In this document: piece after piece, positions 5,837 through 44,841 of the stretch
Layout of the letters: each line of letters starts with the position of its first letter
Position numbering within the stretch: the first letter of the stretch is position 1
Assembly (NCBI GenBank): GCA_035709005.1
Contig: DASTFB010000063.1
Span: forward strand, 1 to 44,841
DNA from: Candidatus Methylomirabilota bacterium
Lineage (GTDB): Bacteria > Methylomirabilota > Methylomirabilia > Rokubacteriales > CSP1-6
Direction: 5' to 3'
Length of the DNA stretch: 44,841 bases
Notes under the pieces: generated by a model
The model's input: the letters and a program-made list of their open reading frames with translations, nothing else
Told to the model about the DNA's origin: nothing
The model's database searches: none
Translations under genes and position numbers: made by a program

Positions 5837-5932
5837 GCCCCGCCCGGGGTCTCGCGGTGGACGCCGTCGCCGCCGCATCGTGGGCCATCTGGAGCGACTG
5901 GTCGCCGAACTCGGCGGTGGACGCCGGATCCC

Positions 5933-5961
5933 TTGACAGGCCCGATGCGGTTGGGATACGC
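5933..5961 (+). promoter_or_regulatory. Probable promoter of the 6014-10053 importer operon
   Basis: A perfect TTGACA (5933-5938) is followed after 16-17 nt by GATACG/ATACGC, a weak -10. Just upstream, GCGGTGGACGCCG occurs twice (5854-5866 and 5914-5926), exactly 60 bp apart, possibly as regulator sites. The remaining 5837-5932 stretch shows no gene. Confidence 0.45.
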
Positions 5962-6013
5962 CCAGACGCGGGACCGTGGGAACCGGGTGACAACGCCCGA
6001 GGGAGGAACCGCC

Positions 6014-30233: not shown

Positions 30234-30263
30234 CCGGGCACCGGAGCCAGCCGGGCGTCCCGC

Positions 30264-31145
30264 ATGAGGGCGAGGGTCTTCCGCAACCCGTGGCTCCCCT
30301 ATGTCCTGGTGGCGCCGCAGGTCCTGATCACGCTCGTCTTCTTCTTCTGGCCGGCCTTCGAGTCCCTCCGGCTCTCTCTGTTCAGGGTCTCGCCGTTCGG
30401 TGACCGGCAGGTCTTCACGGGCGCCGACAACTTCACCCGCCTCTTCACCTCCGCCGACTACCTCCAGAGCATCCAGGTGTCGTTCGTGTTCGCCCTGGGC
30501 GTCACCTTCCTCACCCTCGCGAGCTCGCTGGCGCTGGCCGTGCTGGCCAGCCAGAAGATCCGCGGCCGCGGCGTCTACCGCTCGGCCATGCTGTGGACCT
30601 ACGGGATCGCGCCGCCCGTGAGCGGGATCATCTGGCTCTTCATCTTTCACCCCTCGTACGGGCTCGTCCCCTACCTCCTCTCGACCGTCACCGCCTACGA
30701 GCTCAACTGGCTCCTCGAGGGCCGAATCGCGATGCTGCTGGTCATCCTCGCGGCAACCTGGGCGCGGCTCGGCTACGGCGTGGCCTTCTACCTGGCCGGC
30801 CTGCAGTCGATCCCGGACTCCGTCCTCGAGGCCGCCAGCGTGGACGGCGCGGGGCCCGTCCGGCGGTTCTGGGCGATCACGTTCCCCCTGCTCTCGCCGG
30901 TGACGTTCTTCCTGTTCATCATCATGATGGTGTTCGCCTTCTTCGAGACCTTCGGCATCATCCACGCGGTCACGCAGGGCGGGCCGGGCAACGCCACGAC
31001 GATCATGGTCTACAAGGTCTACCTGGACGGCTTCGTGAACCTCCGGCTCGGACTGTCCGCGGCCGAGTCCGTGGTTCTGATGACGATGGTCATCGTCCTC
31101 ACGATGCTCCAGTTCCGGTACACGCAGCGGAAGGTCTTCTATTGA
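30264..31145 (+). CDS. ugpA: Glycerol-3-phosphate-type ABC transporter permease
   Basis: 293 residues from ATG 30264, 30 bp after ugpB. It has six membrane helices, beginning with LVAPQVLITLVFFFWPAFES. The EAA docking loop EAASVDGAGPVRRFWAITFP lies near residue 190, and TQGGPGNATTIMVYKVYLDG is the conserved block before the last helix of UgpA. It pairs with UgpE. Its TGA overlaps the TTG start of ugpE. Confidence 0.93.
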   Translation: MRARVFRNPWLPYVLVAPQVLITLVFFFWPAFESLRLSLFRVSPFGDRQVFTGADNFTRLFTSADYLQSIQVSFVFALGVTFLTLASSLALAVLASQKIRGRGVYRSAMLWTYGIAPPVSGIIWLFIFHPSYGLVPYLLSTVTAYELNWLLEGRIAMLLVILAATWARLGYGVAFYLAGLQSIPDSVLEAASVDGAGPVRRFWAITFPLLSPVTFFLFIIMMVFAFFETFGIIHAVTQGGPGNATTIMVYKVYLDGFVNLRLGLSAAESVVLMTMVIVLTMLQFRYTQRKVFY

Positions 31146-32023
31146 GCATCGAGTGGAGCGCCGAGGCGACGCTCACTCGGCCCCGCGTCGGGGCTGCCCG
31201 GCGCCGGCGCGCGTGGGGACGGCTGGCCATACACGCGCTGCTCGTCCTGGCCGTGCTGGCCCTCGGCTTTCCCCTCTATTACGCGTTCGTCATCAGCACC
31301 CAGACCATCGCCGAGGCCACCGCCTCGCCGCCCCGGGTGCTGCCGGGAAGCCACTTCTGGACCAACTACACCGAGGTCTGGCACCGCATCCACATGGGCC
31401 GCCTGCTCCTGAACAGCCTGATCATCGCGCTCACGGTGAGCGTGGGGAAGATCGCGGTCTCGATGCTCTCGGCCTTCGCCATCGTGTACTTCCGGTTCCG
31501 CGGCCGGGAAGTCGTGTTCTGGATGATCTTCGTGACGCTGATGCTCCCGGTGCCCGTCCGCATCATCTCGACGTACAAGGTGATCAGCGACCTCGGCTGG
31601 ATCAACACTTACGCGGGGCTGACCATCCCGCTGATCGCGTCGGCGACCGCGACCTTCCTGTTCCGCCAGTTCTTCCTGACGGTCCCGGACGAGCTGTCGG
31701 ACGCCGCCCAGATCGACGGGGCGGGGCCGATGCGGTTCTTCTGGTCGATCCTGCTGCCGATCTCCTGGGCCAACATCGCCGCCCTCTTCGTCGTCATGTT
31801 CATCTATGGCTGGAACCAGTACCTGTGGCCGTTGATGATCACCAGCTCCGAGGACATGCGCGTGGTGGTGACGGGTATCGCGGCGTTCGTCCCCACGGGG
31901 ACCCAGTTGCCGGAATGGAACCTGGTCATGGCGGCGGCGGTGATGGCGCTGCTGCCCCCGATCGCCGTGGTCGTCGCGATGCAGCGGTGGTTCGTCAAGG
32001 GCCTGACCGAGCCCGAGAAGTAG
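31142..32023 (+). CDS. ugpE: Glycerol-3-phosphate-type ABC transporter permease, TTG start
   Basis: 293 residues from TTG 31142, which overlaps the ugpA stop as TTGA and has GGAAGG about 8 nt upstream. No ATG or GTG gives the full N-terminal helix. The first membrane segment is LLVLAVLALGFPLYYAFVIS. SDAAQIDGAGPMRFFWSILL is the EAA loop and NQYLWPLMITSSEDMRVVVT the UgpE C-terminal signature. It is translationally coupled to ugpA. Confidence 0.92.
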   Translation: MSIEWSAEATLTRPRVGAARRRRAWGRLAIHALLVLAVLALGFPLYYAFVISTQTIAEATASPPRVLPGSHFWTNYTEVWHRIHMGRLLLNSLIIALTVSVGKIAVSMLSAFAIVYFRFRGREVVFWMIFVTLMLPVPVRIISTYKVISDLGWINTYAGLTIPLIASATATFLFRQFFLTVPDELSDAAQIDGAGPMRFFWSILLPISWANIAALFVVMFIYGWNQYLWPLMITSSEDMRVVVTGIAAFVPTGTQLPEWNLVMAAAVMALLPPIAVVVAMQRWFVKGLTEPEK

Positions 32024-32024
32024 C

Positions 32025-32885
32025 ATGGCCGACGCGGAGCGGCACCGTGAGCGCGGGGGGCCCGGAGGCCGGACGGCCACCTGGCTCCTGCTCGGGGTCT
32101 GGGTGGCCGCGCTCCTGGCTGCCGGGTTCGCCGGCCGCGCCCCGGCGGCGTTGCTGGCCGCCCATCGCGGTGGGGCCGGGCTCTGGCCGGAGAACTCGCT
32201 GCTGGCCTTCCGGAGCGCCCTGGCGCTCGGCGTGGACTTCCTGGAGCTCGACGTCCACCTCACCCGGGACGACCGGCTCGTGGTGATCCACGACCCCACG
32301 CTCGAGCGCACGACGACAGGGATCGGGGCGGTCCGCGCGGCCACGCTCGAGGAGCTCCGCGCCCACCGCCTGAGGGACGGCGGCGCCGAGCGGATCCCGA
32401 CGCTCGAGGAGGTCCTGGACCTCGTCCACCCCACCGGGACCGGCCTGCTGCTCGAGATCAAGACCGCGCCGCGCCGGGAACCCTACCCCGGGATCGAGGA
32501 TCGGGTGCTCCGTCTGCTCCGGGCGCGCGGGCTCGTCCCCCGCACCGTCGTCATGTCGTTCGAGCCCTCGATCGTCCGACGCGTGCGGGAGCTCGATCCC
32601 ACGATCCGCACGAGCCTGGTCGTCTCCGCGCGCCGGCTCGGCCGCGAGGGCGCCGTACCGGCGGCGGCCGTCGCCTGGGCCGCCGACGCCGGGGCCACCG
32701 ACATCGGCATCCAGCACACCCTGATCACGCCGGCCCTGGTCGCGGCTGCCCGCGCACGTGGCCTCCGGATCGGCGCCTGGACGGTCAATGACGAAGCGGC
32801 GATGCGCCGGATGATCGACTTCGGCGTGGACGTGCTGATCACCGACCGGCCCGACCTGGCCCGGACGCTGTTGTCCGGCCGCTGA
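32025..32885 (+). CDS. ugpQ: Glycerophosphodiester phosphodiesterase with N-terminal membrane anchor
   Basis: 286 residues, ATG one base after the ugpE stop. The GDPD barrel has all expected catalytic and metal residues: His47-Arg48 in AHRGG, Glu56 in PENS, Glu74 and Asp76 in LELDVHLTRDD, and His89 in VVIHDPTLERTT. It hydrolyses glycerophosphodiesters to glycerol-3-phosphate and an alcohol. Unlike the soluble cytoplasmic UgpQ of E. coli, residues 19-40 (TWLLLGVWVAALLAAGFAG) form a hydrophobic helix, a membrane anchor or uncleaved signal. The enzyme may therefore act outside the cytoplasm and feed the importer. It converges on korB. Confidence 0.93.
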   Translation: MADAERHRERGGPGGRTATWLLLGVWVAALLAAGFAGRAPAALLAAHRGGAGLWPENSLLAFRSALALGVDFLELDVHLTRDDRLVVIHDPTLERTTTGIGAVRAATLEELRAHRLRDGGAERIPTLEEVLDLVHPTGTGLLLEIKTAPRREPYPGIEDRVLRLLRARGLVPRTVVMSFEPSIVRRVRELDPTIRTSLVVSARRLGREGAVPAAAVAWAADAGATDIGIQHTLITPALVAAARARGLRIGAWTVNDEAAMRRMIDFGVDVLITDRPDLARTLLSGR

Positions 32886-32947
32886 CCCAGGCGGCGCCTT
32901 CCCCGCGGCGTCACCCGCGTCACCCCGCCCCCCCGAGTCAAGGGCGG

Positions 32948-33847
32948 TTACATCAACTCTGCGATGAGCGCTCGCGCAATGTCCGGGGCGACCCCCAGTG
33001 GACGATGCGCCAGCGGGCCGCCCGCACCGAGGACCGGTTCTAGCTGATCCAGCGCCGGCAGATCCTGGCGCCTCCAGAAGAGGCCGATCGGGATGACCTC
33101 GCCCCACAGCCAGCCCTTCTCCATGGCGGCGTGAACGTCGGTGGGGTCATGACCCATCTCTTCCAGCTTGCGCGTCCTCTGCTTGAAGAACTCATGGGTG
33201 TTGTCGTGGTTGTACGTCACGCAGGGACTGAAGGTGTCGATCAGGGCGAAGCCTCTGTGCTGCAGGCCCCCCTTGATCAGCTCGACCAGCTGCTTCTGCT
33301 GACCGGTGAATCCCCGAGCCACGTACGTGGCCCCGGCGGCGATGGCCAGGGGAATCGGATTGACGGGGTTCTCGACGCTACCGAAAGGAGTGCTCTTCGT
33401 GTTCATCCCCTTGCTGCTGGTGGGGGAGAGCTGGCCGGTCGTCAGACCATAGATCTGGTTGTTCATGACGATATAGGTCAGGTCGACGTTGCGGCGCATG
33501 GCGTGCACGAAGTGATTGCCCCCGATGCCGTACCCGTCACCGTCTCCGCCCGTCACGACGATCTTCAAGTGGTGATTGCCCAGCTGAGCGCCGGTGGCCA
33601 CCGCCAGGGCGCGGCCATGCAAGGTGTGCATGCCATACGTGTTGAGATACCCGGGCAGGTTCGACGAGCAGCCGATGCCGCTGATGGTGAGGACCGTATG
33701 GGGCTGGAGCCCCAGCTCGGCGATCGCTTGCTTCAGGGCCGCCAGCACGCCGAAGTCGCCACACCCCGGACACCAGTCGGGATCGACCTTGCCCTTGAGA
33801 TCCTTGACCGTCACCTTGACGTGCTCGGTCTGAGCCATGGTGGCCAT
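32948..33847 (-). CDS. korB: 2-oxoacid:ferredoxin oxidoreductase, beta subunit
   Basis: 299 residues from ATG 33847, with AAGGAG 6-7 nt upstream; ATG 33838 is a second choice. Beta subunits bind thiamine diphosphate and one [4Fe-4S] cluster. The four cysteine ligands are Cys26 and Cys29 (WCPGCGDFG), Cys60 (GIGC) and Cys209 (SPCVTYN). The ThDP/Mg site is GGDGDGYGIGGNH (100-112) followed by NNQIYGLTTGQ (129-139). With KorA it decarboxylates a 2-oxoacid, probably 2-oxoglutarate, to the CoA ester and reduces ferredoxin. The gene lies 11 bp after korA. No separate ferredoxin (delta) subunit is present, as in aerobic KorAB enzymes. Confidence 0.94.
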   Translation of the reverse strand: MATMAQTEHVKVTVKDLKGKVDPDWCPGCGDFGVLAALKQAIAELGLQPHTVLTISGIGCSSNLPGYLNTYGMHTLHGRALAVATGAQLGNHHLKIVVTGGDGDGYGIGGNHFVHAMRRNVDLTYIVMNNQIYGLTTGQLSPTSSKGMNTKSTPFGSVENPVNPIPLAIAAGATYVARGFTGQQKQLVELIKGGLQHRGFALIDTFSPCVTYNHDNTHEFFKQRTRKLEEMGHDPTDVHAAMEKGWLWGEVIPIGLFWRRQDLPALDQLEPVLGAGGPLAHRPLGVAPDIARALIAELM

Positions 33848-33858
33848 CGTCGTCTCCT

Positions 33859-35646
33859 TCACACCTGGATCTCGTGCACGGGCACGTAGCGTTTGGTCGA
33901 GCCCGCCAGAATGGCGGTGACACCGTCCACGATGTGGTGCGGCATGAACGGCTCTCCGTCGTATTTTCGGATATGGCCGCCGGCGACGATCCCGGTCTCC
34001 GCTCTCAGGTAGCGCGCGAACTGCCCGCTGTAGTTGTTCTCGACAATGATGACCGCGCGGCATCGGGACAGGATCGACACGATCGCTTCTGCGTGCAGGG
34101 GGACGAGCCATCTGATCTGGAGGTTGTTGGCCACGATGCCGGCTTCGGCCAGCTGTTGCATGGCCTCGCGAATGACGCCTTCGGTCGAACCCCAGCCCAC
34201 CAGGGTGACGTGCGCGTCGGCGGGCCCATGAAGGACCGGCGGGGCCAGGAGCGGAAGGACCCCGTCCATCTTGCGCATCCGCTTCTCGTGGATGGCCTGG
34301 CGCTTGTGCGGGTCCGTGAATTCGTCGCTGATCAGCACGCCGTCCTCGTCGTGCTCGTCGGTGGCCACCACGTGGACGTATCCGGGGGTCCCCGGCAACG
34401 CCCGTGGGGAGACGCCGCTCTCGGTGACGAGGTAGCGCTTGAAGCCACCGTTCACGGGCGGCCCGTCACCGTTGAGGCCGACGACGTCACCGCGGTCGAT
34501 GGGCACGTTGAAATCCAGCTCCGCCGGATCGATGCTGGACCGACCTTCGGACAGCAGCAGATCCGAGAGGATGATGCCGGGACACTGAAACTTGTCGACC
34601 AGGTTGAAGAGCGTGGGGACGACCTTGAAGCAATCCCCGATGTTCGTCGGCGCGACGATGATCCGCGGATAGTCTCCCTGGCCGGCCCCCATCACTTGCC
34701 AGAGATCGCCCTGCTCGGTCTTGGTGGGCACTCCCGTGGCCGGTCCGGCCCGCTGGACGTTGATGCAGACGACCGGGATTTCCATCATGGCCGCCGCGCC
34801 CAGGGCTTCGCTCATGAGGGCAAAGCCGCCGCCGGAGGTCGCGCACATGGCGCGGCACCCCGTGTGGGCCGCTCCGATGGCCATGTTGATCACTCCGATC
34901 TCGTCCTCGACCTGGCGCACCATGATGCCGAGCTGGCGCGCGTGCCGCGCCATCCAGTGCAGCACGCCCGACGACGGGCTCATGGGATAGGCACAGTAAA
35001 AGCGCACGCCGGCGGCCGCGCCGCCCATGGCCAGAGCCTGGTTGCCTTCGAAGAAGGCCAGTCGTTTGCCCGTGTCGGGCAGCGAGAACGGCAAGGCCGT
35101 GAAATGCGTCGCCGCGTAGTCGTACCCCGCGCGCGCGACACCCACGTTTTCGGCCACGGCGGCCGCGCCCTTCCGCCTGAACTGGAGCGTCAAGATCTCC
35201 TCGAGAATCTCGAACTCGACCTTGATCAAGCGCAGGACGGCGGCCAGCGCGAGGGTGTTCTGGACGAGATCGCCCCGGGTGGTGGGCGCCAGCGCTTTGA
35301 CGGAAAACGGGCAGAGCTGCACGCCGTCGGGAACGACACCTGGCTTGATCGTGTCGCTGTTGAACAGCACTGCCGAGCCTGCTCGCATCAGCTTCAGGTG
35401 TCGATTCATCGTGTCCTGGTTCAACGGCATGAGCACGTCGATCTTGTCGCCCTGACTCAGCACAGGCTGGTCACTCGTGCGGAGAGTCAGGAAGATGTGG
35501 CCGCCGCGAATGATGGACTGGTAGGCATTGTAGGCGTTCACGTGAAGCCCGCGGCGCACGAAGATCCGCGCCAGAATGTCGCCCGGAGTGGCGATCCCCT
35601 GGCCCGCCGCGCCGCCGATACCGATGGCAAGGTCGAGTCTGCGCAC
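33859..35646 (-). CDS. korA: 2-oxoacid:ferredoxin oxidoreductase, fused gamma-alpha subunit
   Basis: 595 residues from GTG 35646, 7 nt after AGGAG. GTG 35649 and ATG 35670 are alternatives. The N-terminal gamma domain (about 1-190) begins with the CoA-domain loop GIGGAAGQG and includes AYQSIIRGGH. The alpha domain follows with GNQALAMGGAAAG, FYCAYPMSPSS (pyrimidine-binding region, about 216-226) and QRAGPATGVPTKTEQGDL. A C-terminal transketolase-like domain has VTLVGWGSTEGVIREAM. The gamma-alpha fusion is standard for 2-oxoglutarate- or pyruvate-type KorA in aerobes. The long upstream region has a TTGACC-17-CAGGAT promoter and a palindrome. Confidence 0.94.
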   Translation of the reverse strand: MRRLDLAIGIGGAAGQGIATPGDILARIFVRRGLHVNAYNAYQSIIRGGHIFLTLRTSDQPVLSQGDKIDVLMPLNQDTMNRHLKLMRAGSAVLFNSDTIKPGVVPDGVQLCPFSVKALAPTTRGDLVQNTLALAAVLRLIKVEFEILEEILTLQFRRKGAAAVAENVGVARAGYDYAATHFTALPFSLPDTGKRLAFFEGNQALAMGGAAAGVRFYCAYPMSPSSGVLHWMARHARQLGIMVRQVEDEIGVINMAIGAAHTGCRAMCATSGGGFALMSEALGAAAMMEIPVVCINVQRAGPATGVPTKTEQGDLWQVMGAGQGDYPRIIVAPTNIGDCFKVVPTLFNLVDKFQCPGIILSDLLLSEGRSSIDPAELDFNVPIDRGDVVGLNGDGPPVNGGFKRYLVTESGVSPRALPGTPGYVHVVATDEHDEDGVLISDEFTDPHKRQAIHEKRMRKMDGVLPLLAPPVLHGPADAHVTLVGWGSTEGVIREAMQQLAEAGIVANNLQIRWLVPLHAEAIVSILSRCRAVIIVENNYSGQFARYLRAETGIVAGGHIRKYDGEPFMPHHIVDGVTAILAGSTKRYVPVHEIQV

Positions 35647-35793
35647 CACCGATCTCCTGTCGGAGCGCATAGGTGACTCTTGCGGCGGTCCGCGCCGTGC
35701 GCCCCGCGCGACGGGAACCGGGCTGCCCCGGAAACGCCACCCTGTGGGGTGAGGGCGAGCGCCGGCAGCAGCGATCCCACGATTGCCCCAGCA

Positions 35794-35843
35794 ATCCTGC
35801 GCCGAACAGGGGGCGCGGTCAAGACGTCATCGGAAATCCGATG
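35794..35843 (-). promoter_or_regulatory. korAB promoter with adjacent 16-bp palindrome
   Basis: Minus strand: palindrome CATCGGA-TT-TCCGATG (35828-35843), then TTGACC (35817-35822), 17-nt spacer and CAGGAT (35794-35799). The palindrome also touches the stop codon of the DUF4440 gene, so it could instead be its weak terminator. The leader to korA is about 140 nt. Confidence 0.42.
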
Positions 35844-36209
35844 CTATGCTCCCTTCGCGTTCCAGATGTCTCGATGGAGCCGCCACTGCCCATCAACCTT
35901 CTTCCACACGACGACAAATTTCACGACAGCTGTGCCACTGCTGAGCGTCAGCGTCGCCTCACCTACTTCATAACCAGTGTCGCCCGCCTGTTCGAAGTCC
36001 AGCGTGTTGAGCCGGACGTCCTTCAGCCCCAGCTGCTGCGCAACCGAGGCCCACATCTGCTTGATACTGTCACGACCTTTGACGATCGGTCCGTCAGGCG
36101 GAAACGCCATCGCATCGGGCGTGTAGAGCGCAGCGAGGCGGTCAACGTCTCCCTTGCGGGCGGCCTCCTCGAACTGGCGATTTACGGCGGCGATGTCTGA
36201 TCGGCTCAT
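35844..36209 (-). CDS. DUF4440/SnoaL-like (NTF2 fold) protein
   Basis: 121 residues from ATG 36209 with AAGGAGG 6-7 nt upstream. The NTF2-like fold is indicated by SDIAAVNRQFEEAARKGDVD (helix 1), RLAALYTPDAMAFPPDGPIV, GRDSIKQMWASVA and the closing strands VVKFVVVWKKVDGQWRLHRD IW in order. Many such proteins are small enzymes or ligand-binding proteins, called SgcJ/EcaC or YybH-like. No catalytic pair is obvious. Base composition is less GC-rich than the genes to its left. Confidence 0.85.
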   Translation of the reverse strand: MSRSDIAAVNRQFEEAARKGDVDRLAALYTPDAMAFPPDGPIVKGRDSIKQMWASVAQQLGLKDVRLNTLDFEQAGDTGYEVGEATLTLSSGTAVVKFVVVWKKVDGQWRLHRDIWNAKGA

Positions 36210-36573
36210 CACATCCTCCTTCATAGAGGGCCTTGAGCTGGTGAGGAGGGACTGTCTCGTGCCGGATCGGGGCCACTTCATGCACGACCTCCAAACCGCC
36301 GGGCCGGTGAAGGTCGGAACGGTATCGCGAGCGTAGCCCGCCGTGTCTGGAGCAGTCAAGCAGCGTCCTTGACAGCCGTCGCTAACCGGCGCAGAGTCCT
36401 GCTACCGTCCTGACCCACCCGCTCTCAGGGGAGGCATCAGATGCCCCTGGACCGGCGACTCGAATAATTCTCCAACATCTCATCATGCGTTCTCAGGGCA
36501 GAAGTCCGCCGCGGGCCCACCTCCGACATGCTCCCCATACACGTGAGGACGAGTCGCCCACGGAGGGAATGTG
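36210..36573. other. 364-bp intergenic region between divergent genes
   Basis: No gene is supported. A TTGACA (36369-36374) with a 17-nt spacer to CAGAGT (36392-36397) may drive the downstream plus-strand gene. A bulged hairpin, CAGG(GGA)GGCAT-CAG-ATGCCCCTG, lies at 36426-36449. Confidence 0.35.
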
Positions 36574-36996
36574 ATGGCTGAGAAAGAGAACCTCGAGGTT
36601 GTTCGTAAATCCTTCGACGCATGGAACGCTCACGATCCAGCCCGCTACGCCAAGCTACTGGACGAGAAGTACGTCCAAGAATCCGACACACTCCCACAAG
36701 CGATCAGCGGTCGAGAAGCTGGTCGCGAGGTCCTGCAGATGTACCTGAGGGCATTCCCTGACCTCCACCTCGATGTCGAGCAGCTACTGACGAGCGGGGA
36801 TTATGTCGTCGTGCGGTGGACGGGCACTGGAACACATCGCGGTGAGCTGATGGGGATCCCAGCCACGAATCGATCCGCCGTGGTGCGCGGTTGCAGCATC
36901 GTGGAGGTTCGACGGGGACACCTGGTGCGTGAGTGGGTGTACTGGGACACCGCCCACCTCCTGCGCCAGCTCGGCGTTCTATCGATCGCTGCGTAG
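36574..36996 (+). CDS. SnoaL-like ester cyclase-family protein
   Basis: 140 residues from ATG 36574; GGAGG lies 7 nt before it, while GTG 36571 would be too close. The NTF2-type fold shows ENLEVVRKSFDAWNAHDPAR, YVQESDTLPQAISGREAGRE, LRAFPDLHLDVEQLLTSGDY and VVVRWTGTGTHRGELMGIPA. These are the successive signatures of SnoaL/polyketide-cyclase-like proteins that act on small hydrophobic molecules. GC content is clearly lower than in the core genes (57% over 36601-36660), suggesting recent acquisition. The stop codon lies 2 bp from a truncated CBS-domain remnant on the other strand. Confidence 0.87.
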   Translation: MAEKENLEVVRKSFDAWNAHDPARYAKLLDEKYVQESDTLPQAISGREAGREVLQMYLRAFPDLHLDVEQLLTSGDYVVVRWTGTGTHRGELMGIPATNRSAVVRGCSIVEVRRGHLVREWVYWDTAHLLRQLGVLSIAA

Positions 36997-36998
36997 CC

Positions 36999-37193
36999 GT
37001 CCCCGATGCTGACGATGCCCTTGAGCACGCCGCTCTCCACCACGGGAACGTGCCTCACGCGGTGGTGAGTCATCTGGGCCATGACCCGCGTATCGCTTTC
37101 GTCCGGCACGCAGGTGACAACGCGACGGACCATCAGGTCCGACACGCGCAGATCGGACACCCTGGCCCCGTCCACGGCCAGATGGATGCCTCC
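36999..37193 (-). pseudogene. CBS-domain protein remnant
   Basis: A 65-codon minus-strand stretch reads as the second CBS motif of a CBS-pair protein: RVSDLMVRRVVTCVPDESDT, RVMAQMTHHRVRHVPVVESG and VLKGIVSIGD. CBS pairs bind adenosine nucleotides and normally come as two motifs of about 60 residues. Here motif 1 is missing, no start codon or ribosome-binding site exists, and the frame runs directly into sequence belonging to the SnoaL gene after VSIGD. The fragment looks cut at both ends by recombination. Confidence 0.7.
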
Positions 37194-37290
37194 TTCCGCA
37201 GGTGCGTGGGCCGGGGAACCGGCCGGCGTCGTCAGGGTAGTCCGGGACCTGTAAGCGGTCAAGGAACGCATCGTTGTTGGGAGGTGCCGT

Positions 37291-37611
37291 ATGCCGAAGT
37301 ACATGATCCAAGCGTCATACACGGCCGAAGGCGTTAGAGGTCTCATGAAAGATGGAGGCTCCAAGAGACGCGCCGCGGCGGAATCCGCAGTGAAAGGAGT
37401 GGGCGGCAAGCTCGAGGCCTTCTATTTCGCCTTTGGCGAGACCGACGTGTACGCCATCGCGGACGTACCCGACAATGCCAGCGCCGCCGCCATCTCCCTT
37501 GCCGTCACTGGCAGCGGAGCAGTCAACGCGAGAACGACCGTGCTGATGACACCGGAGGAAATGGACCAGGCCACGAAAAAGACGATCAGCTACGGTCCTC
37601 CTGGCCGCTGA
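37291..37611 (+). CDS. GYD-domain protein
   Basis: 106 residues from ATG 37291 with GGGAGG 6 nt upstream. The sequence PKYMIQASYTAEGVRGLMKD, AESAVKGVGGKLEAFYFAFG and ETDVYAIADVPDNASAAAIS follows the GYD family (about 90-110 residues), a ferredoxin-like alpha/beta fold of unknown function. The G-E-T-D-V-Y segment replaces the name-giving GYD motif. The C terminus ends in a Lys/Gly-rich tail. It stands alone on its strand; the three-hairpin repeat copy B begins 135 bp after it. Confidence 0.85.
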   Translation: MPKYMIQASYTAEGVRGLMKDGGSKRRAAAESAVKGVGGKLEAFYFAFGETDVYAIADVPDNASAAAISLAVTGSGAVNARTTVLMTPEEMDQATKKTISYGPPGR

Positions 37612-37745
37612 TCTCGGCCTCACCCGGTGAAACGGGAACGGAGGGACGATGCCAAGCGCCTTCTCGACGCGCTGGCACTTGACTTCGCCAACGGACGGGG
37701 CTACTCGGGTAGTTCATGGAGGGTACGCCACCCGACGATGGAGCC

Positions 37746-37874
37746 GCCGCCGAGAGCGCGCTAGCCGCTCTCGGCGGCGACTCGAACCTTCCAGAGGCCC
37801 CGACTTTTGCCGGGGCGCATAGCCAGAAGAGGGGGAGTAGCAGGCGCAGCGCGCCCACTCCCCCTTGGCATTCC
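37746..37874. repeat. Three-hairpin repeat, copy B
   Basis: Second copy of the 129-bp element at 28665-28793, in the same orientation. Hairpin 1 is perfect here: GCCGCCGAGAGCG, loop CGCTAGC, CGCTCTCGGCGGC (37746-37778). Hairpin 2 has one mismatch (GCCCCGAC-TTTT-GCCGGGGC). Hairpin 3 keeps its outer 9-bp stem, but the apical triplet is AGC instead of GCT, the reverse complement. It lies 6 bp before the terminator of the tRNA-Lys fragment. Between the GYD stop and this repeat (37612-37745) no gene is supported. Confidence 0.75.
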
Positions 37875-37880
37875 AGTACC

Positions 37881-37924
37881 AAAAGCGGATCGGGGAGCCC
37901 GCCGGCGCTGAGCTCCCCAATCCG
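37881..37924 (-). terminator. Rho-independent terminator of the tRNA-Lys locus
   Basis: On the minus strand, CGGATTGGGGAGC (37912-37924) pairs with GCTCCCCGATCCG (37886-37898), 12 of 13 bp, around a 13-nt loop, followed by CTTTT. It starts 2 nt after the CCA end of the tRNA fragment, exactly where a tRNA gene terminator belongs. Confidence 0.8.
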
Positions 37925-37926
37925 AT

Positions 37927-37971
37927 TGGTGGGCCGTCAAGGACTCGAACCTTGGACCCGCTGATTAAGAG
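37927..37971 (-). tRNA. tRNA-Lys(CUU) 3' fragment, probable integration scar (att site)
   Basis: Read on the minus strand from 37971: anticodon loop CTCTTAA (anticodon CTT), anticodon-stem 3' half TCAGC, variable loop GGGTC, a perfect T arm CAAGG-TTCGAGT-CCTTG, acceptor 3' strand ACGGCCC, discriminator A and encoded CCA. Upstream of the anticodon loop the tRNA is lost: the five bases that should pair with TCAGC are CCTCA (three pairs only), no D arm has the right spacing and no GGGCCGT acceptor strand is found. The tRNA terminator remains intact downstream. This is the typical remainder after integration of a mobile element into a tRNA gene; the intact copy should lie at the far end of the element, to the right. 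Confidence 0.8.
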
Positions 37972-38042: not shown

Positions 38043-38096
38043 GTCTACTCTGCCGCTCGCCTTGATACGCTCCGAACTGTCTACAAGCTGTCTACA
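38043..38096. other. GTCTAC repeats beside the tRNA scar, possible recombinase arm sites
   Basis: CTGTCTACA occurs at 38077-38085 and 38088-38096, start-to-start 11 bp, and a related CGTCTACT lies at 38042-38049. One-helical-turn direct repeats next to an att core resemble arm-type sites for integrase or excisionase. The second copy also forms GCTGT-CTAC-ACAGC. The remaining 37972-38322 shows no gene and no recognisable integrase remnant. Confidence 0.35.
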
Positions 38097-38322: not shown

Positions 38323-39633
38323 TCACCACCGCTCCTGCTCGACCTTGCAACCGAGCCGTAGGAGCGCATCGACCAGCCCGAGCGCGTCCGCGACGTCCGG
38401 CGCGGTCGCCACCGCCGAGGCCACCAGCTGTGCACGCAGGCGCGCGAGTCCAGCCCGCTCTCCATCGTCGAGGGGTGAACCCCCGCCGGACTGCACAGCC
38501 TGTTCCAGCCAGGCCGCGCTGGTGCGATGGAGCGACACCGGGCGGTCGAGCCGCGTGCGCAGCAACCACCAGATCCTGAGCCCGCCGAGGTCGGCATCGC
38601 CCCAGTGCCGGAAGTCGAGCGCGGGCTTCCGCGCCGCGGCGAGGGCGTCGAGCAGGACCGGAGTCGGGAACCCCGCGGTGTAGACCGCGACCTCGCCCCG
38701 ATCACCGAGGCCCGCCGGCCCACCTGCCTCCTCGACGTAGGCCAGGAACGCCGTCTCGTTCTCGATGGTCGTGATGCGGCTGGTGGGCCCGCTGGCGATC
38801 GCCTCCGCCCACGCCTCGGTCCAGGCCTCCGGCAGGTGCGCCGCCGGCGCGAAGTCCTCCAGCTCGTAGACGCGCGGCGCGATCTTCAGGGTGGCCCGGC
38901 CCGCGCAGCGCAGGAGCCCGGGCTTGCGTCGAACGCCGTACGCCTCGAACAGCTCCGGGACGCGATCGCGGGACAGGCCCTCCCAGCGCGGATCGGCGCG
39001 AAGCAGGATGTCGGCGACGAGCGGCCGCACCACCGCCAGCCGCTTCGAATCGCCGTAGACGCGCTCGCTGACCACGCGCTCCCAGCCCGCCAGGCCCCGG
39101 GCCAGGGCCGCCGCGCCGGTCAGGGCGTCCAGCACGTCGCGACGCTCGCGCTTGAACCGCTCGCGCTGGACGCCGAGGAGCGACACGTCGGCCCTCGGGA
39201 TGCCGGTCGCCAGCTCGGCCAGATACGCCGCGAACCAGCCGGGCCCGGGCTCGACGCGGAGGCCGTCCACCAGGGCCGTGAGCGCCTGCAGATCCTCGCC
39301 CAGTGCCCGGAAGCCGAACGCCGCCGCCAGCTCGTAGGCGCGAGCAAGCTCGTCCGGGCCCACGCGCAGCTCGCGCGCCAGACCGGCGGCGTATCCCCGG
39401 TGCCGGACCACGCGCACGGCGCCCTCGCGCGCGAGCTGCTCCGCGGCCTCGCGGAGATCGGCCAGCATCTCGCGCCCGTCGGGATCGAACGCCTCGGGGA
39501 ACGTCGTGGCGTCGAGTCGGATGATCACGTCCTGCCGCCAGGGTCCCGGCCGCCCGAAGGCGGCGCTGCGCTCGTATTTATCGAGTAGTCGGCGCAGCAG
39601 GTCCCTGCGCGCCGTCGTCGCCGAGGTCGCCAT
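38323..39633 (-). CDS. jetD: Wadjet nuclease subunit JetD (DUF3322/DUF2220)
   Basis: 436 residues from ATG 39633. JetD is the Toprim-like nuclease that cleaves DNA looped by the JetABC motor, removing small circular plasmids. The N-terminal arm domain (1-about 230) includes LLRRLLDKYERSAAF. The C-terminal DUF2220 half has the Toprim-type acidic residues: Glu291 in IENETAFLAYV, then VYTAGFPTPVLLDALAA and WGDADLGG with Asp346 and Asp348 (a DxD motif). The start codon lies 56 bp inside the jetC gene. The conserved LLDKYERS stretch is itself encoded close to that region, so the overlap appears real. It is the last gene of the operon, and 352 bp of gene-free sequence separates it from the tRNA-Lys fragment. 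Confidence 0.88.
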   Translation of the reverse strand: MATSATTARRDLLRRLLDKYERSAAFGRPGPWRQDVIIRLDATTFPEAFDPDGREMLADLREAAEQLAREGAVRVVRHRGYAAGLARELRVGPDELARAYELAAAFGFRALGEDLQALTALVDGLRVEPGPGWFAAYLAELATGIPRADVSLLGVQRERFKRERRDVLDALTGAAALARGLAGWERVVSERVYGDSKRLAVVRPLVADILLRADPRWEGLSRDRVPELFEAYGVRRKPGLLRCAGRATLKIAPRVYELEDFAPAAHLPEAWTEAWAEAIASGPTSRITTIENETAFLAYVEEAGGPAGLGDRGEVAVYTAGFPTPVLLDALAAARKPALDFRHWGDADLGGLRIWWLLRTRLDRPVSLHRTSAAWLEQAVQSGGGSPLDDGERAGLARLRAQLVASAVATAPDVADALGLVDALLRLGCKVEQERW

Positions 39634-42600
39634 CCGGCTTGAACTCCTTGGTGAAGTCGAGAACGGTGGGCAGCCCGCTGACCGCGTCGCGATGGATGTA
39701 GAGGCTCGTCTCTGTCCACGGGGCCACCAGTTCGCTGCGCTCCTTCGGCGTGGCCATCAGGAGCTGCAGCCCGAGGCCGCGCGCGAAGCGCAGGGTCGCC
39801 TGGATGCGCGACTCGTCCATCTTCGAGAAGGCCTCGTCGAGCAGGACGAGGCCGCACCGCGGGCGGCCGTCGGGCGTCAGGCTCCGGTAGAGGCGGTACA
39901 GGGAGGCGAAGATGGCGATGTAGTATGGGTTCTGCGTCTCCCCGCCGGACTTGTCGCCGGCCACGCGGCCGTAGAGCGAGTGGGTGCCGTCGGCGTGCAG
40001 GATGCGCAGGTCGTAGTCGAAGTACTCGCGATAGTCCGCGCGCGAGTCCAGCTCGCTCTTCACCTGGCGTGCCTCGGCCTGGACGAGCCGCCCGAAGAGG
40101 TCCTCCAGCGTGCGCCGGGTGTCGTCACTGCCGAGCGCGCTGGCGCCGAAGAGCGAGTCCTTCTCGAAGCGGCCGGCGTCCATGATGAGGTCGTGGAAGA
40201 GGCGGTGTTCGGGCGCGACCTCGAGCGTGAACTGGTAGCGCTCCGACCCGAAGGGCACGTCCTTCAGCGCGCGGTTCAGCTCGTCGATCTGCCGCCGGAC
40301 GTCGACGAGGTTCTCGCGCAGGCGGAAGATGACGTCCTCGGCCAGCTGCTGGATCGCCTCGTCCTTGGCCCGGACGATGCGCTCGCGGTACTCGGGCAGG
40401 CGGCTGTCGCGCCACAGGTCCCGCTGGGCGCTGAAGTCGTCGTAGCCCTCGCCCTCGACCTCGGCGGCCAGGCCGAAGGTGTTGGCGTACTCGGTCTTGA
40501 GCCTGACGAGGCTCAGCACGAGCCCCTGGACGCGGCTGTCGATGTTCCGGTACTGGCGCTCAAACACCTCGCGGATCTCGGCCGCCTCGCGGTCGGCGCG
40601 CTCGCGGCGGTAGCGCTCCTCGTAGCCGGCGCGGCGCTCGGCGTCCTCGGCAGCACCGGGCACGAGGGCGTCGAGACGGGTCCGCGCCTCCTGCCCGGCC
40701 AGCGCCGCGCGCGCGCGCTCGGCGCCGGCGTGCTCCAGATCGCGGGCGCAGGCGCCGACGCGCTCGCGGAGATCTCCCCGCTCGCGGTCCAGGCGCTGCA
40801 GCTCGGCGTCGGCGGCGTCGCGCTCGCGCTGGAGGTGCTCCACTTCGCGGCGGTCGATCCGGTCGAGCTGCCGCTGGAGCAGCGCCGCGCGGGCGCGCAG
40901 GTCGGGCAGGCGCTGGGCCGCCTCGACGAGGCGGGGCAGCTCGACGGCCTCGCCCAGCGCCCTTCGGCACGCCCCCGCGGCGTTCCGCAGCCACTGCACG
41001 GCCCGGGCGAGGTCGACGACGGCCGCGGAGAGCTCGCCCAGACGCCGGCCGATCTCCTCCTGCCGCCGCAGGCGGGCGGCCTCGCCGACGTAGTGGCGGC
41101 GGAACACCTCGAGCGGCGTCTGCCGCGCCACGTGGTTCTGGTACACCATGACCGTGTCGGTGATGGCCCGGCGGTGGCGGCGCAGCTCCTGCTCGCTCTC
41201 GCAGCAGATGACGTCGCCGAGCAGGAAATCGACGTAGGCGCGGGCCAGGGGGTCGTCGGTGGCGACCTGCTCCGCGAGCGACCGCGCCTCGCGGCGCGGC
41301 GCCATGGCCTGGATGCGCTCGATGTCGACGAGCCCGACGCTCGCGATGAAGATGCGGCCCCGGCCCGGCAGCGTGTAGTCGCGCTTGTGCCGCTCGTAGA
41401 GCGCGAGGGCCCGCGGGAAGTCACCGGGGGCGACGAGCACGTCGAACCGGCGCGTGTTGAGGTAGCCCTCCACCGCGTCGCGCCACCGCGCCGACGCCAC
41501 CTCGATGAGCTCGCAGAGCGGCCGGGGCTCGCGGGCGCCGCCGAGCCGGGCCCGCAGCAGGTGCAGGAGACCCTCGGCGCCGTCCGGATAGCGCTGCCGC
41601 CCGCGCTCGAGGTCGGCCTGCTCCGCCTCCAGCAGATGGCCCTCCCGATTGGTGGCCTCCAGCGCCTCGTCGAGCCGCGCCAGGGCCACGGCGATGGCGT
41701 CGGCGGCCCGCCCGAGGTGGCGGGTCCAGGTGGCGAGGTCGCGGCCGCCCAGGTGTCCGTCGCGCGCGAGCGTCTCGCGCAAGCGCCCGACCACGGCCGG
41801 CTCGTCGGGGGCGCCGAGCAAGGACGGGGACGGGAAGGCGTCGGGCTGGACGCTCCGGATGTCGCGAGCCTCCTGGCCGATGAGCGTGTCGAGCACCGCC
41901 CGCTGGCCGTCGAGGATGCGGCGGGCCCGGGTCTCCGAGTCGGCGGCGTCGCCGATCTCGCGCCGCGTCGTCTCCAGGTCGCGCTCGAGCGCCTGGATCT
42001 CGCGGAAGCCCGGCGTGGCCACCAGGAGCTCGGTCAGGCGGTCGCGCTCGCGCAGAAAGAAGGCCCGCTGATCGTCGGCGCGCGCGAGGTCGGCGGCGAA
42101 CGCGTCGCGGGCGCGCGCGGTCTCCTCCAGATGCCGGTCGATCTCGTGCAGGCGGCCCTCGGCCAGCTCGACGTCGGCCCGCAGCGAGAGGTAGTGGTGG
42201 CTCTCGGCCGTACGGCGCTCCTGGGCGATGCGCTCCCCCTGCGTGCAGATGGCGTCGAGGGCCGCGAGCCGGCGCTCGGCGTCGCGCGCCTGGGCCTCGA
42301 GCCGCTTGTAGTGCTCGAGGTTGGCCTGGAGCGACTCGGTGTCGACGGGCCGCTCGTCCAGGAGGTAGTGAAAGACGAAGTCGCGGACCTCGCCGATCGG
42401 CTTGAAGTCGAGGGCCTTGACGATGAGCCGGTGGAACGCCTCCGGTAGGGCGCCGAGGCGATGGCGCAGCTCGTCGCGATAGGTGGCGGCGTCGGCGAAG
42501 GACCGGGCGTGCGGGACCGCGCGCAGGGCCTGCCGGAAGTCGCGCAGCGGCCGCACGAGGTCGCCGGGGGCGATCGCGGGGACGTCCGCCGCCGCGCTTC

Positions 42601-43006
42601 GCGGGACGACGAAGTGGACCCGGGCGACGTGCGTATCGGTCTCGGCCGCCTCCATGGCCAGGCCGCACGCGAAGTCGCCGGCGGGATCCTGGTAGTCGGT
42701 GAACTGGAGGATCACGTACGACGAGCACGCGCCCCGGCCGAACCGGACCTGGCCGGGGCGCGTCTCGTCCTCGGAGCCCAGCTTGTAGCGCACGTAGCCG
42801 TGCAGGCTCCGACGGCTCTGCTCGTTGGCGGCCTTGTTGAAGCGCACCTGCTGCTGGTCGGCCACCAGCGCCCACTGGACGGCGTCGAGCACCGTCGACT
42901 TGCCGCTGCCGTTGTCGCCGAGCAGCAGGCAGCTGCCGCCGAGCCAGAACGTCTGGTCGGCGAAGTGGTACCAGTTCACGAGGCGGATGGCGGCCAGGTG
43001 AATCAT
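39578..43006 (-). CDS. jetC: Wadjet SMC-like ATPase JetC
   Basis: 1142 residues from ATG 43006, which overlaps the jetB stop by ATGA. The frame stays open upstream, but that is antisense to or out of frame with jetB and jetA. The N-terminal head begins MIHLAAIRLVNWYHFADQTF and has Walker A GDNGSGKST (30-38). Long coiled-coil arms rich in Arg, Glu, Ala and Leu (about 240-480 and 680-930) flank a hinge-like region (about 490-650). The C-terminal head has the SMC signature DKSGGETQ (1018-1025) and Walker B CGLVLLDEAFSKMD (1051-1064). JetC dimers bound by JetA and JetB extrude DNA loops and deliver plasmid DNA to JetD. The head resembles MukB/MksB-type SMCs. Confidence 0.93.
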   Translation of the reverse strand: MIHLAAIRLVNWYHFADQTFWLGGSCLLLGDNGSGKSTVLDAVQWALVADQQQVRFNKAANEQSRRSLHGYVRYKLGSEDETRPGQVRFGRGACSSYVILQFTDYQDPAGDFACGLAMEAAETDTHVARVHFVVPRSAAADVPAIAPGDLVRPLRDFRQALRAVPHARSFADAATYRDELRHRLGALPEAFHRLIVKALDFKPIGEVRDFVFHYLLDERPVDTESLQANLEHYKRLEAQARDAERRLAALDAICTQGERIAQERRTAESHHYLSLRADVELAEGRLHEIDRHLEETARARDAFAADLARADDQRAFFLRERDRLTELLVATPGFREIQALERDLETTRREIGDAADSETRARRILDGQRAVLDTLIGQEARDIRSVQPDAFPSPSLLGAPDEPAVVGRLRETLARDGHLGGRDLATWTRHLGRAADAIAVALARLDEALEATNREGHLLEAEQADLERGRQRYPDGAEGLLHLLRARLGGAREPRPLCELIEVASARWRDAVEGYLNTRRFDVLVAPGDFPRALALYERHKRDYTLPGRGRIFIASVGLVDIERIQAMAPRREARSLAEQVATDDPLARAYVDFLLGDVICCESEQELRRHRRAITDTVMVYQNHVARQTPLEVFRRHYVGEAARLRRQEEIGRRLGELSAAVVDLARAVQWLRNAAGACRRALGEAVELPRLVEAAQRLPDLRARAALLQRQLDRIDRREVEHLQRERDAADAELQRLDRERGDLRERVGACARDLEHAGAERARAALAGQEARTRLDALVPGAAEDAERRAGYEERYRRERADREAAEIREVFERQYRNIDSRVQGLVLSLVRLKTEYANTFGLAAEVEGEGYDDFSAQRDLWRDSRLPEYRERIVRAKDEAIQQLAEDVIFRLRENLVDVRRQIDELNRALKDVPFGSERYQFTLEVAPEHRLFHDLIMDAGRFEKDSLFGASALGSDDTRRTLEDLFGRLVQAEARQVKSELDSRADYREYFDYDLRILHADGTHSLYGRVAGDKSGGETQNPYYIAIFASLYRLYRSLTPDGRPRCGLVLLDEAFSKMDESRIQATLRFARGLGLQLLMATPKERSELVAPWTETSLYIHRDAVSGLPTVLDFTKEFKPDGDLGDDGAQGPAAPTTR

Positions 43007-43650
43007 CGGGACTCCTCGCCGTCCTCGGGGTCGTCGGCGGGGCCGCCGTCGTCGGCCGAGACCAGCGACCCCGTGTAGGCGCGGATCCGCTCGGCCATCT
43101 CGGCGATGCGGTCGGGCGGCAGCACCTTCTCGATGAGCGCGCTCACCTCGAACGTCTCGGTGTCCTCGCCGGCGAACCCGCGCTCGATCACGATCAGGGA
43201 GTGACGACCCAGCCGCCGCAGGGCGTGCTCGAGCGCGCGCCGGGAGAGCTGCACGGCGGGCTTGCCCGACTGGATGAGCCGCTCGCGCAGGGCCCCGACG
43301 GACATCTCGCATCGGAGGTCCTCGCTCGCCTGCTGCATCTGCTCGTGATAGGCCAGCCGGAGCGTGCACAGCACCAGGCTCTCGAGCTTCGAGAGCCGCA
43401 CGCGCTGCTCTCCCGATTCGTGGACCGCCCGGCACAGTCGGAGACCGAGGTCGATCTCGAGCCGCCATCCGCCGATCCGGAGGTAGCCGTCGATGAGCTC
43501 GCGGTGCCGCTCCGCGAAGCGCCAGTCCGGATCGGGCCGCATGGCGGGCCCCGGCGTGAGCACGTGGCCGGACAACAGGCGGGTCACCACCTCGCGAAAG
43601 CGGTCCTGCTGCGCCGGTTCGAGCCCGGCGTAGTCCGCGGTGAAGTCCAC
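43003..43650 (-). CDS. jetB: Wadjet subunit JetB (DUF4194)
   Basis: 215 residues from GTG 43650, 3 bp after the jetA stop. It is predicted mostly helical with two winged-helix-like segments: LSKLESLVLCTLRLAYHEQM and RRALEHALRRLGRHSLIVIE. The tail is acidic (DDGGPADDPEDGEE). The size, the placement between JetA and JetC and the helix pattern fit DUF4194/MukE-like KITE subunits that dimerise and hold the kleisin JetA on the SMC heads. It overlaps jetC by four bases (ATGA), which implies coupled translation. Confidence 0.87.
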   Translation of the reverse strand: MDFTADYAGLEPAQQDRFREVVTRLLSGHVLTPGPAMRPDPDWRFAERHRELIDGYLRIGGWRLEIDLGLRLCRAVHESGEQRVRLSKLESLVLCTLRLAYHEQMQQASEDLRCEMSVGALRERLIQSGKPAVQLSRRALEHALRRLGRHSLIVIERGFAGEDTETFEVSALIEKVLPPDRIAEMAERIRAYTGSLVSADDGGPADDPEDGEESR

Positions 43651-43653
43651 GAC

Positions 43654-44841
43654 TCACGCCCTCCGCCGGCGGCCCACGAAGCCGCGCGGGAAGCCATAGG
43701 GACCATGGCGGGCGAGGCGCTCCTCCGCGGGCGCCGGGTCGCGCTCGAACCGGTAGGGCGAGCGGCCGTCGAGCCCGTAGGCCACGGTGTAGATGAGGCG
43801 GACGTAGTCCGTGTCGGTGTCCGGCGCCACCTCGGCGAGCGGCGCGGCGGCGCGGGCGCCGAGCAGGCCCTCGACGAAGGCCTCGACCCGCGAGCGCGCG
43901 AACGGCCGGCGCAGGCGCGGCGCGATGTCGCGCCGGAGCTCCGCGGTCTCGGGCGCGCGGCGGGCGAGCGGCTGGGCCTCCGGACGCGGCCGCCGCCGCG
44001 GGGGCGTGTATAGGAAGCCGCTGGCGAGCAGCTCGCAGCGATAGACGTCGAAGACGAGGTCGGGCGCCCGATCGCGCGCGAGCACGTCGACGATGCGCTG
44101 CAGCTGCCCTTCGGTCCGGGTGTCCTGCCGGAGGAGATACATGAGCTTGCGGAGGGCGACGCCGCTGAAACGGGCGTTTCGGACGTCGATGTCGTCGACG
44201 AGCCGGGGCAGCGTCTCGAACTGCGTCCTCAGGAGCCGCAGGTCCGCGGTCACGGCGGCGCCGGCGGCCTGCGAGTCGACGGAGAGCTGCTCGGCGTACC
44301 AGCGGCCAGCCGCCTCGAGCGCTCGCCCGTCGGCCTCGATCGCGTCGAGGCGGTGCAGGATCTCGCCGCGCCACTTGTAGAGATTGTCGACGGTCTTGAG
44401 CCGGTGATAGTTCGCCAGCACCGCGTGGCGGTAGTGGTCGAGACCCTCCTCGAGCACGCCGGACGCCGACGTCGCCGCGTCGAGCAATCGCTGGGTCGAT
44501 GCAAAGATGTTGCGGTCGAGGATCTTCAGCTCCCGGATCATGTCCAGCGTGTGCCGGCGCGCCTCGCTGAGCGACACGCCGGGCCGTCCGGCGAAGACGT
44601 CCGCCCGCAGCTGCGAGGCGATGGAGTGCGCGTACCCCTGGAACAGGGGTTGCTCATCGCGGGCGACGCGGACGAGCGCTTCCAGGATGCGCGCCGCGTA
44701 CGGGAAGAAGTTGAGCACCTCACCGACCGCGCTGCGGTACTCGAAGTGGAACCAGCCGGCGGCCTCGAGCCGACCGACGAGCCGGCGCGCCGTCGCGCGC
44801 AGCAGCGCCGCGTCGTCGCTCGCCGGCTCGCCGGCGTCGCC
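43654..44841 (-). CDS. jetA: Wadjet kleisin subunit JetA, N terminus outside window
   Basis: The frame is open from the right window edge to the stop at 43654, 395 residues. An internal ATG at 44718 is not the true start, because coding sequence continues upstream with LRATARRLVGRLEAAGWFHF, which matches the winged-helix start of JetA proteins. Further blocks are EVLNFFPYAARILEALVRVA, ASTQRLLDAATSASGVLEEG and YHRLKTVDNLYKWRGEILHR. The C-terminal part (about 290-395) has a second small domain with FVEGLLGARAAAPLAEVAPD and ends in GRRRRA. The JetA kleisin bridges the JetC heads and binds JetB. The Wadjet subtype is not certain; the JetC and JetA sequences look closer to type II than to the DUF3375 type. 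Confidence 0.85.
   Translation of the reverse strand, partial: GDAGEPASDDAALLRATARRLVGRLEAAGWFHFEYRSAVGEVLNFFPYAARILEALVRVARDEQPLFQGYAHSIASQLRADVFAGRPGVSLSEARRHTLDMIRELKILDRNIFASTQRLLDAATSASGVLEEGLDHYRHAVLANYHRLKTVDNLYKWRGEILHRLDAIEADGRALEAAGRWYAEQLSVDSQAAGAAVTADLRLLRTQFETLPRLVDDIDVRNARFSGVALRKLMYLLRQDTRTEGQLQRIVDVLARDRAPDLVFDVYRCELLASGFLYTPPRRRPRPEAQPLARRAPETAELRRDIAPRLRRPFARSRVEAFVEGLLGARAAAPLAEVAPDTDTDYVRLIYTVAYGLDGRSPYRFERDPAPAEERLARHGPYGFPRGFVGRRRRA

Follow-up and report, generated by a model that had tools for sequence, protein, structure and literature searches.

A type I Wadjet operon, jetABCD, is very probably the cargo of a genomic island of ~8 kb integrated in the 3' half of a tRNA-Lys(CTT) gene. 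The operon lies at the right end of the window (the whole stretch of DNA that was analysed, 44,841 nucleotides), which is the whole of contig C63 in a draft genome of 134 contigs (4.59 Mb, 95% complete, 3.6% contamination). It consists of four minus-strand genes in the order jetA, jetB, jetC, jetD:

38323..39633, minus strand: jetD, Toprim nuclease, 436 aa (PADLOC JetD1, 2.7e-41; Pfam JetD_C, 39.7 bits, cut-off 22)
39578..43006, minus strand: jetC, SMC-type ATPase, 1142 aa (PADLOC JetC1, 7.4e-254; Pfam SbcC_Walker_B and AAA_29)
43003..43650, minus strand: jetB, KITE-type subunit, 215 aa (PADLOC JetB1, 1.7e-26; Pfam DUF4194, 62.2 bits, cut-off 32.7)
43654..44841, minus strand: jetA, kleisin, 395 codons to the contig end (PADLOC JetA1, 2.6e-51; Pfam JetA, 204 bits, cut-off 26.2)

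A preliminary description of this DNA had reported four overlapping genes in this order. The order, strand and coordinates hold, and jetD and jetC overlap by 56 bp and jetC and jetB by 4 bp, but a 3-bp spacer separates jetB from jetA. Judged by their profile matches, with E-values of 1e-26 to 1e-254 that exclude chance, the four genes are real. The jetA gene is incomplete in the window and runs past the contig end.

The same description had noted a tRNA scar beside the operon, guessed at a mobile island anchored in a tRNA gene, and suggested reading further to the right. The scar is real, its 45 nt matching without a difference the 3' half of the genome's intact tRNA-Lys(CTT) gene, and reading to the right led to contig C17, which would carry the remainder of the island (the head of jetA, a Phd/ParE pair and a second scar). 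The guess can now be sharpened: both ends of the island are located, and its integrase has been lost. The elements that define the locus are as follows:

37927..37971, minus strand: outer att core (scar), the tRNA-Lys(CTT) 3' half from the anticodon loop to CCA, 45/45 nt identical to the intact gene
38079..38096, plus strand: arm-type direct repeat GTCTACA-AGCT-GTCTACA, probable integrase arm sites, at the jetD end
C17:190 down to 1, minus strand: N-terminal head of jetA, 63 codons, 58.6% identical to the N-terminus of the JetA of locus L019
C17:292-621: ParE, read in the same direction as the jet genes
C17:618-887: Phd, read in the same direction as the jet genes
C17:1075-1092: second arm repeat, GTCTACA-N4-GTCTACA, at the opposite inner end, in the same orientation as the first
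C17:1140-1184: second att core (scar), 45 nt, 45/45 identical
C17:8202-8277: intact tRNA-Lys(CTT)

The 45-nt 3' half of tRNA-Lys(CTT) is present in three copies in the genome, all in the same orientation. The window contains no complete tRNA, and an Rfam search of it gave no match. The two copies of GTCTACA-N4-GTCTACA are the only ones genome-wide (4.6 Mb), even when one mismatch is allowed, and a reversed control pattern gave 0 matches in the genome. The distance from core to arm is ~106 nt at the jetD end and ~47 nt at the C17 end. On the assumption that C63 is followed by C17, the order from left to right is chromosome, scar, jetD-jetC-jetB-jetA, ParE, Phd, scar, a second unit, and the intact genes for tRNA-Lys, tRNA-Arg and tRNA-His. 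The Jet unit thus ordered spans ~8 kb between its two att cores; jetA starts ~1 kb from the C17 scar, and the Phd/ParE toxin-antitoxin pair lies just upstream of it.

The second unit fills the ~7 kb between the C17 scar and the intact tRNA-Lys, and holds a HigB/HigA pair, cupin-type proteins and a large sigma-54-type regulator. The last of these (locus L008, C17, 3666-7919, plus strand) is a protein of 1417 aa with a sigma-54 activator domain, a Fis-type HTH, an AAA_16 ATPase and TPR repeats, and partial relatives of it adjoin tRNA-Lys or scars in genomes G029 and G026.

Related islands at the same tRNA gene

The GTCTACA-N4-GTCTACA repeat was found in 5 of the 57 genomes of the family, at seven places in all. 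Genome G018 carries it beside the intact tRNA-Lys and, on another contig, beside a scar (~46 and ~119 nt from the core), and at the scar the repeat marks the start of a gene for a tyrosine integrase with Arm-DNA-bind_3 and Phage_integrase domains. This integrase looks intact; the G018 loci are L073, L074 (G018:C41:12000-47036) and L068 (G018:C45). Genome G029 agrees with G018 on the integrase side, having a scar, the repeat and an integrase 72% identical to that of G018, while G009 has the repeat with a broken integrase gene and G030 has the repeat near its tRNA-Lys. The Jet unit shares with the G018 and G029 islands the tRNA-Lys core, the arms and similar core-arm distances, and because its scar, arms and spacing match those of these integrase-bearing loci, its ends are of the integrase type. 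It differs from them in that a tyrosine integrase lies beside the arms there, and in that G018 has Septu and DISARM-like genes and no Wadjet. The core-to-arm DNA of the window (129 nt) also resembles that of G029, with an alignment score of 50 against 9.1 for shuffles (sd 2.7), and of 34 against 8.3 (sd 2.5) after removal of the repeats. Resemblance to G018 outside the repeats was not above chance.

The stretch of G018 from the tRNA-Lys arms to the contig end encodes a Septu pair (PtuA, 6.5e-90; PtuB, 1.3e-26) and a DrmMI-type methylase (6.4e-57) with helicases, and the methylase and helicases look like DISARM. The far end of this island lies on another contig, so that its full extent is presumed. 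Other parts of the locus studied here also have relatives at the same tRNA gene: the Phd/ParE stretch has 88% DNA identity to a copy that adjoins a scar of tRNA-Lys in G015, where jetA is absent, and for the HigB/HigA pair of the second unit there is a relative (79%) near the tRNA-Lys of G033. Further tRNA-Lys scars were found in G015, G017 and G024, which makes tRNA-Lys a recurrent landing site in this bacterial family. The defence systems are probably exchangeable cargo of the islands.

The relatives offered no clean empty site: synteny holds on the tRNA side (His-Arg-Lys tRNAs) but not on the other. The ORFs to the left of the scar (30000-37926 of the window) have no counterpart adjoining tRNA-Lys in relatives, so that this flank of the integration site either lacks conservation or has received further insertions. 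Within this stretch, overlapping ORFs at 32948-35670 on the minus strand read as subunits of a 2-oxoacid:ferredoxin oxidoreductase, and the upstream part of the smaller one (towards 34111) looks spurious, extending over its neighbour.

Absence of an integrase

In the source genome jetD, not an integrase, comes behind the arm repeat. A permissive tblastn search of the Jet unit gave, among the matches listed, no integrase or clear remnant of one and only chance-level scatter. When the genome's own integrase loci were compared with the G018 and G029 integrases (tblastn, E 1e-5), none was close, the best reaching 37.5% over 88 aa. No transfer genes occur among the genes read in the unit, and the gap inside jetA is too small to hide an integrase if its estimated size is right.

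It has been reported that elements termed CIMEs keep attL and attR and have lost their integration genes, by decay and by accretion in tandem at tRNA genes (PMC5704250). From its ends and contents, the Jet unit is a CIME-like island that carries a Wadjet operon and a Phd/ParE pair, and its mobility is predicted. Like CIMEs and tandem accretions at tRNA genes, it has kept both att ends and lost its integration genes, and a neighbouring unit sits at the same tRNA 3' end; unlike those described (PMC5704250), it carries a Wadjet operon and a toxin-antitoxin pair, its host probably belongs to the Rokubacteria, and its mobilisation and any conjugative parent are hypothetical. The island would descend from an integrase-bearing one and would now be movable only with an integrase from another element, which its arm repeats would bind, and the Phd/ParE pair would stabilise it. 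As such, it illustrates with good resolution how CIMEs form and accrete, a known process, in a lineage that has been little studied.

The same operon might instead sit in a dead relic, immobile for good and inherited vertically, with att ends that are fossils. We regard this as possible, though less likely than not, given that the integrase is absent from the unit, that the genome holds no close one elsewhere, and that the adjacent second unit has no arm repeat, a sign of decay. The ends of the Jet unit itself, however, show no visible decay: both cores are identical to the intact tRNA over their full length and both arm repeats are perfect, although gene conversion or a recent insertion could also keep a tRNA copy alike. 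Moreover, such elements can be mobilised together with a neighbour (PMC5704250). We prefer the reading of a CIME-like island that may still move with outside help.

The junction within jetA

The placement of C17 after C63 comes from the jetA gene. The 63-codon product at the end of C17 aligns with full-length JetA proteins of other genomes (58.6% identity, E 2e-23, for L019; 50% for L020), and the source genome has a single jetA. Judged from the L019 and L020 JetA proteins, ~18 codons are absent between the two contigs. We infer that C17 follows C63 directly, with a gap of ~50-56 bp, and that the jetA frame is intact. A direct join of the contigs, with a 1-nt overlap and an open frame, was considered and rejected, as ~18 residues with a conserved WQxRREEL stretch would be missing.

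It is very unlikely that C63 and C17 lie apart in the genome and that the island is wrongly bounded. Their ends share no overlap, and the join comes from reasoning on a draft bin with 3.6% contamination; yet the head on C17 is the missing N-terminus of the only jetA in the genome, cores and arm repeats agree in orientation and spacing between the two contigs, and the C17 flank is syntenic with the tRNA-Lys loci of the family.

The Wadjet subunits and their predicted action

For each of the four proteins the best PADLOC model is one of type I Wadjet (JetA1, JetB1, JetC1 and JetD1); JetC, for example, matches JetC1 at 7.4e-254 against 3.9e-20 for the best JetC2. These profile matches identify the operon as type I Wadjet, JetABCD. 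The preliminary description had read it as Wadjet, which agrees with all four proteins scoring highest with Wadjet models, and had left the subtype unassigned, which is now filled in as type I. The operon is a further representative of a known system type and not a new kind. In Pfam, JetC matched both ends of an SMC-type ATPase (AAA_29 and SbcC_Walker_B), with SMC_hinge below threshold, and it has the Walker A (GDNGSGKST), signature (SGGE) and Walker B (LLDEA) motifs; these, and the WGDAD of JetD, had been quoted correctly. Searched against the PDB, JetC first found the JetC of P. aeruginosa PA14 (8dk1_C, 1.9e-11) and second MukB (7e-7). JetA gave no useful PDB match by sequence, and JetD none by either sequence or profile search, which places both far from the solved proteins.

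A chromosomal condensin of the MukBEF/MksBEF type, serving housekeeping chromosome folding and not defence, is barely credible here: the JetC head does have a marginal Pfam MukB match (25.0 bits, cut-off 23) and MukB is its second PDB match, as expected because Wadjet and Muk/Mks complexes share ancestry, but Pfam JetA and DUF4194 are matched while MukF and MukE gave no match to JetA or JetB at E 0.1, a jetD gene is part of the operon, JetA in 1 of 57 family genomes is ill-suited to housekeeping, and the unit is bounded by att repeats, its presence on an island only having already been seen. A better fit of the subunits to Muk than to Wadjet, which the preliminary description had named as fatal to its reading, was accordingly not what we found.

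The distribution of the operon is scattered. A scan of one genome per GTDB species found three close relatives of JetC, in MAGs assigned to Candidatus Rokuibacteriota (75% in the best segment), Myxococcaceae (57%) and Terriglobia (47%); the nearest of these JetC proteins is the ground for placing the host probably among the Rokubacteria. The presence of JetA in 1 of 57 family genomes fits horizontal gain, and the scatter, together with the island, favours it. A phage carrier was rejected, as a scan of viral contigs gave no relative, and so was a plasmid carrier, the only match covering 22% of JetD. Among the papers searched, none dealt with Wadjet in Rokubacteria beyond a chance co-mention. 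In the nearest relative (L018), a frame downstream of jetD (5612-6909, plus strand) combines a Uma2-type putative endonuclease domain with an addiction-module component, and a small toxin-like gene comes next; the apparent fusion may be an artefact of the draft sequence. A divergent Wadjet-like operon was seen in a relative without a Pfam JetA match (L055, G009:C127, 3700-13134, minus strand). Its SMC protein matches JetC1 at 2.2e-46 and JetC2 at 7e-40, and it has a JetD1-like nuclease (1.5e-31), a JetB2-like protein and a very weakly JetA2-like one, preceded by matches to PDC-M28C and PDC-M28A, candidate families of PADLOC. This operon may stand between types I and II, or it may be a PDC-M28 system that includes Wadjet subunits.

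JetD has a C-terminal Toprim domain, with Pfam JetD_C above its cut-off and invariant E and DxD motifs. The presence of these acidic motifs answers a second doubt raised earlier, that JetD might lack the Toprim fold. In an alignment with three homologues, E291, E293, D346, D348, E432 and E434 are invariant. For MksG/JetD, E236 and D279 have been discussed as metal-site residues, along with the glutamates E349 and E351, and nucleophiles have been proposed (PMC10123090). On our reading of the motifs, by order and context and not by superposition, the acidic residues here would correspond to these four. A fold search with the predicted structure of JetD (mean pLDDT 76.5, the C-terminal half scoring best) put topoisomerase VI first (probability 1.00, E 0.07, above the usual E-value limit) and Toprim domains of RNase M5 among the following matches. 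These matches agree with a Toprim fold and are supportive but weak, short of proof.

It has been reported that in type I Wadjet, JetABC dimers extrude DNA with ATP, and that JetD is activated and cuts when the motors meet on a small circle, whereas linear DNA and the large chromosome escape cutting (PMC10586767). As far as can be read from the sequence, all parts for such action are encoded here, and we infer plasmid cutting. By transfer from the characterised type I systems, JetABC would load on DNA and extrude it with ATP; on small circular DNA two motors would meet and trigger the Toprim nuclease of JetD, so that the circle would be cut and plasmids restricted. The operon is like the type I systems of E. 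coli GF4-3 and P. aeruginosa PA14 and the MksBEFG of C. glutamicum in its gene order A-B-C-D, in every subunit family, in the SMC ATPase motifs and in the Toprim acidic residues, including the C-terminal E432 and E434. It is nevertheless distant from them: JetC reaches the PA14 JetC only at 1.9e-11, and JetD has no solved relative by sequence. The N-terminus of JetB (VDFTADYAGLEPAQQDRFRE) is without the IFDR motif, which has been reported as a JetD contact in one studied type I system (PMC10586767). The JetB homologues of L019 and L020 likewise have no IFDR, and JetD docking may therefore differ.

With this operon, type I Wadjet gains a distant member from a lineage that is apparently uncultured and probably lives in soil; its JetD has diverged from the solved proteins beyond the reach of sequence search. 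The setting of the operon raises the question of how a destroyer of small circles can ride an element that would leave the chromosome as a small circle. The excised island, a circle of ~8 kb, would be the kind of DNA that Wadjet destroys, and this could, as an idea, explain the loss of the integrase. A fuller version of this idea, which we consider rather unlikely, is that the tRNA-Lys(CTT) islands share one att/integrase system and swap whole defence systems, and that the Wadjet island lost its integrase because its own circle would be a substrate of its nuclease, so that the only routes left to it are in trans, in tandem or within larger DNA. The island is of more consequence than the operon: in this family, one tRNA gene with one set of recombination ends is the site of different defence genes.
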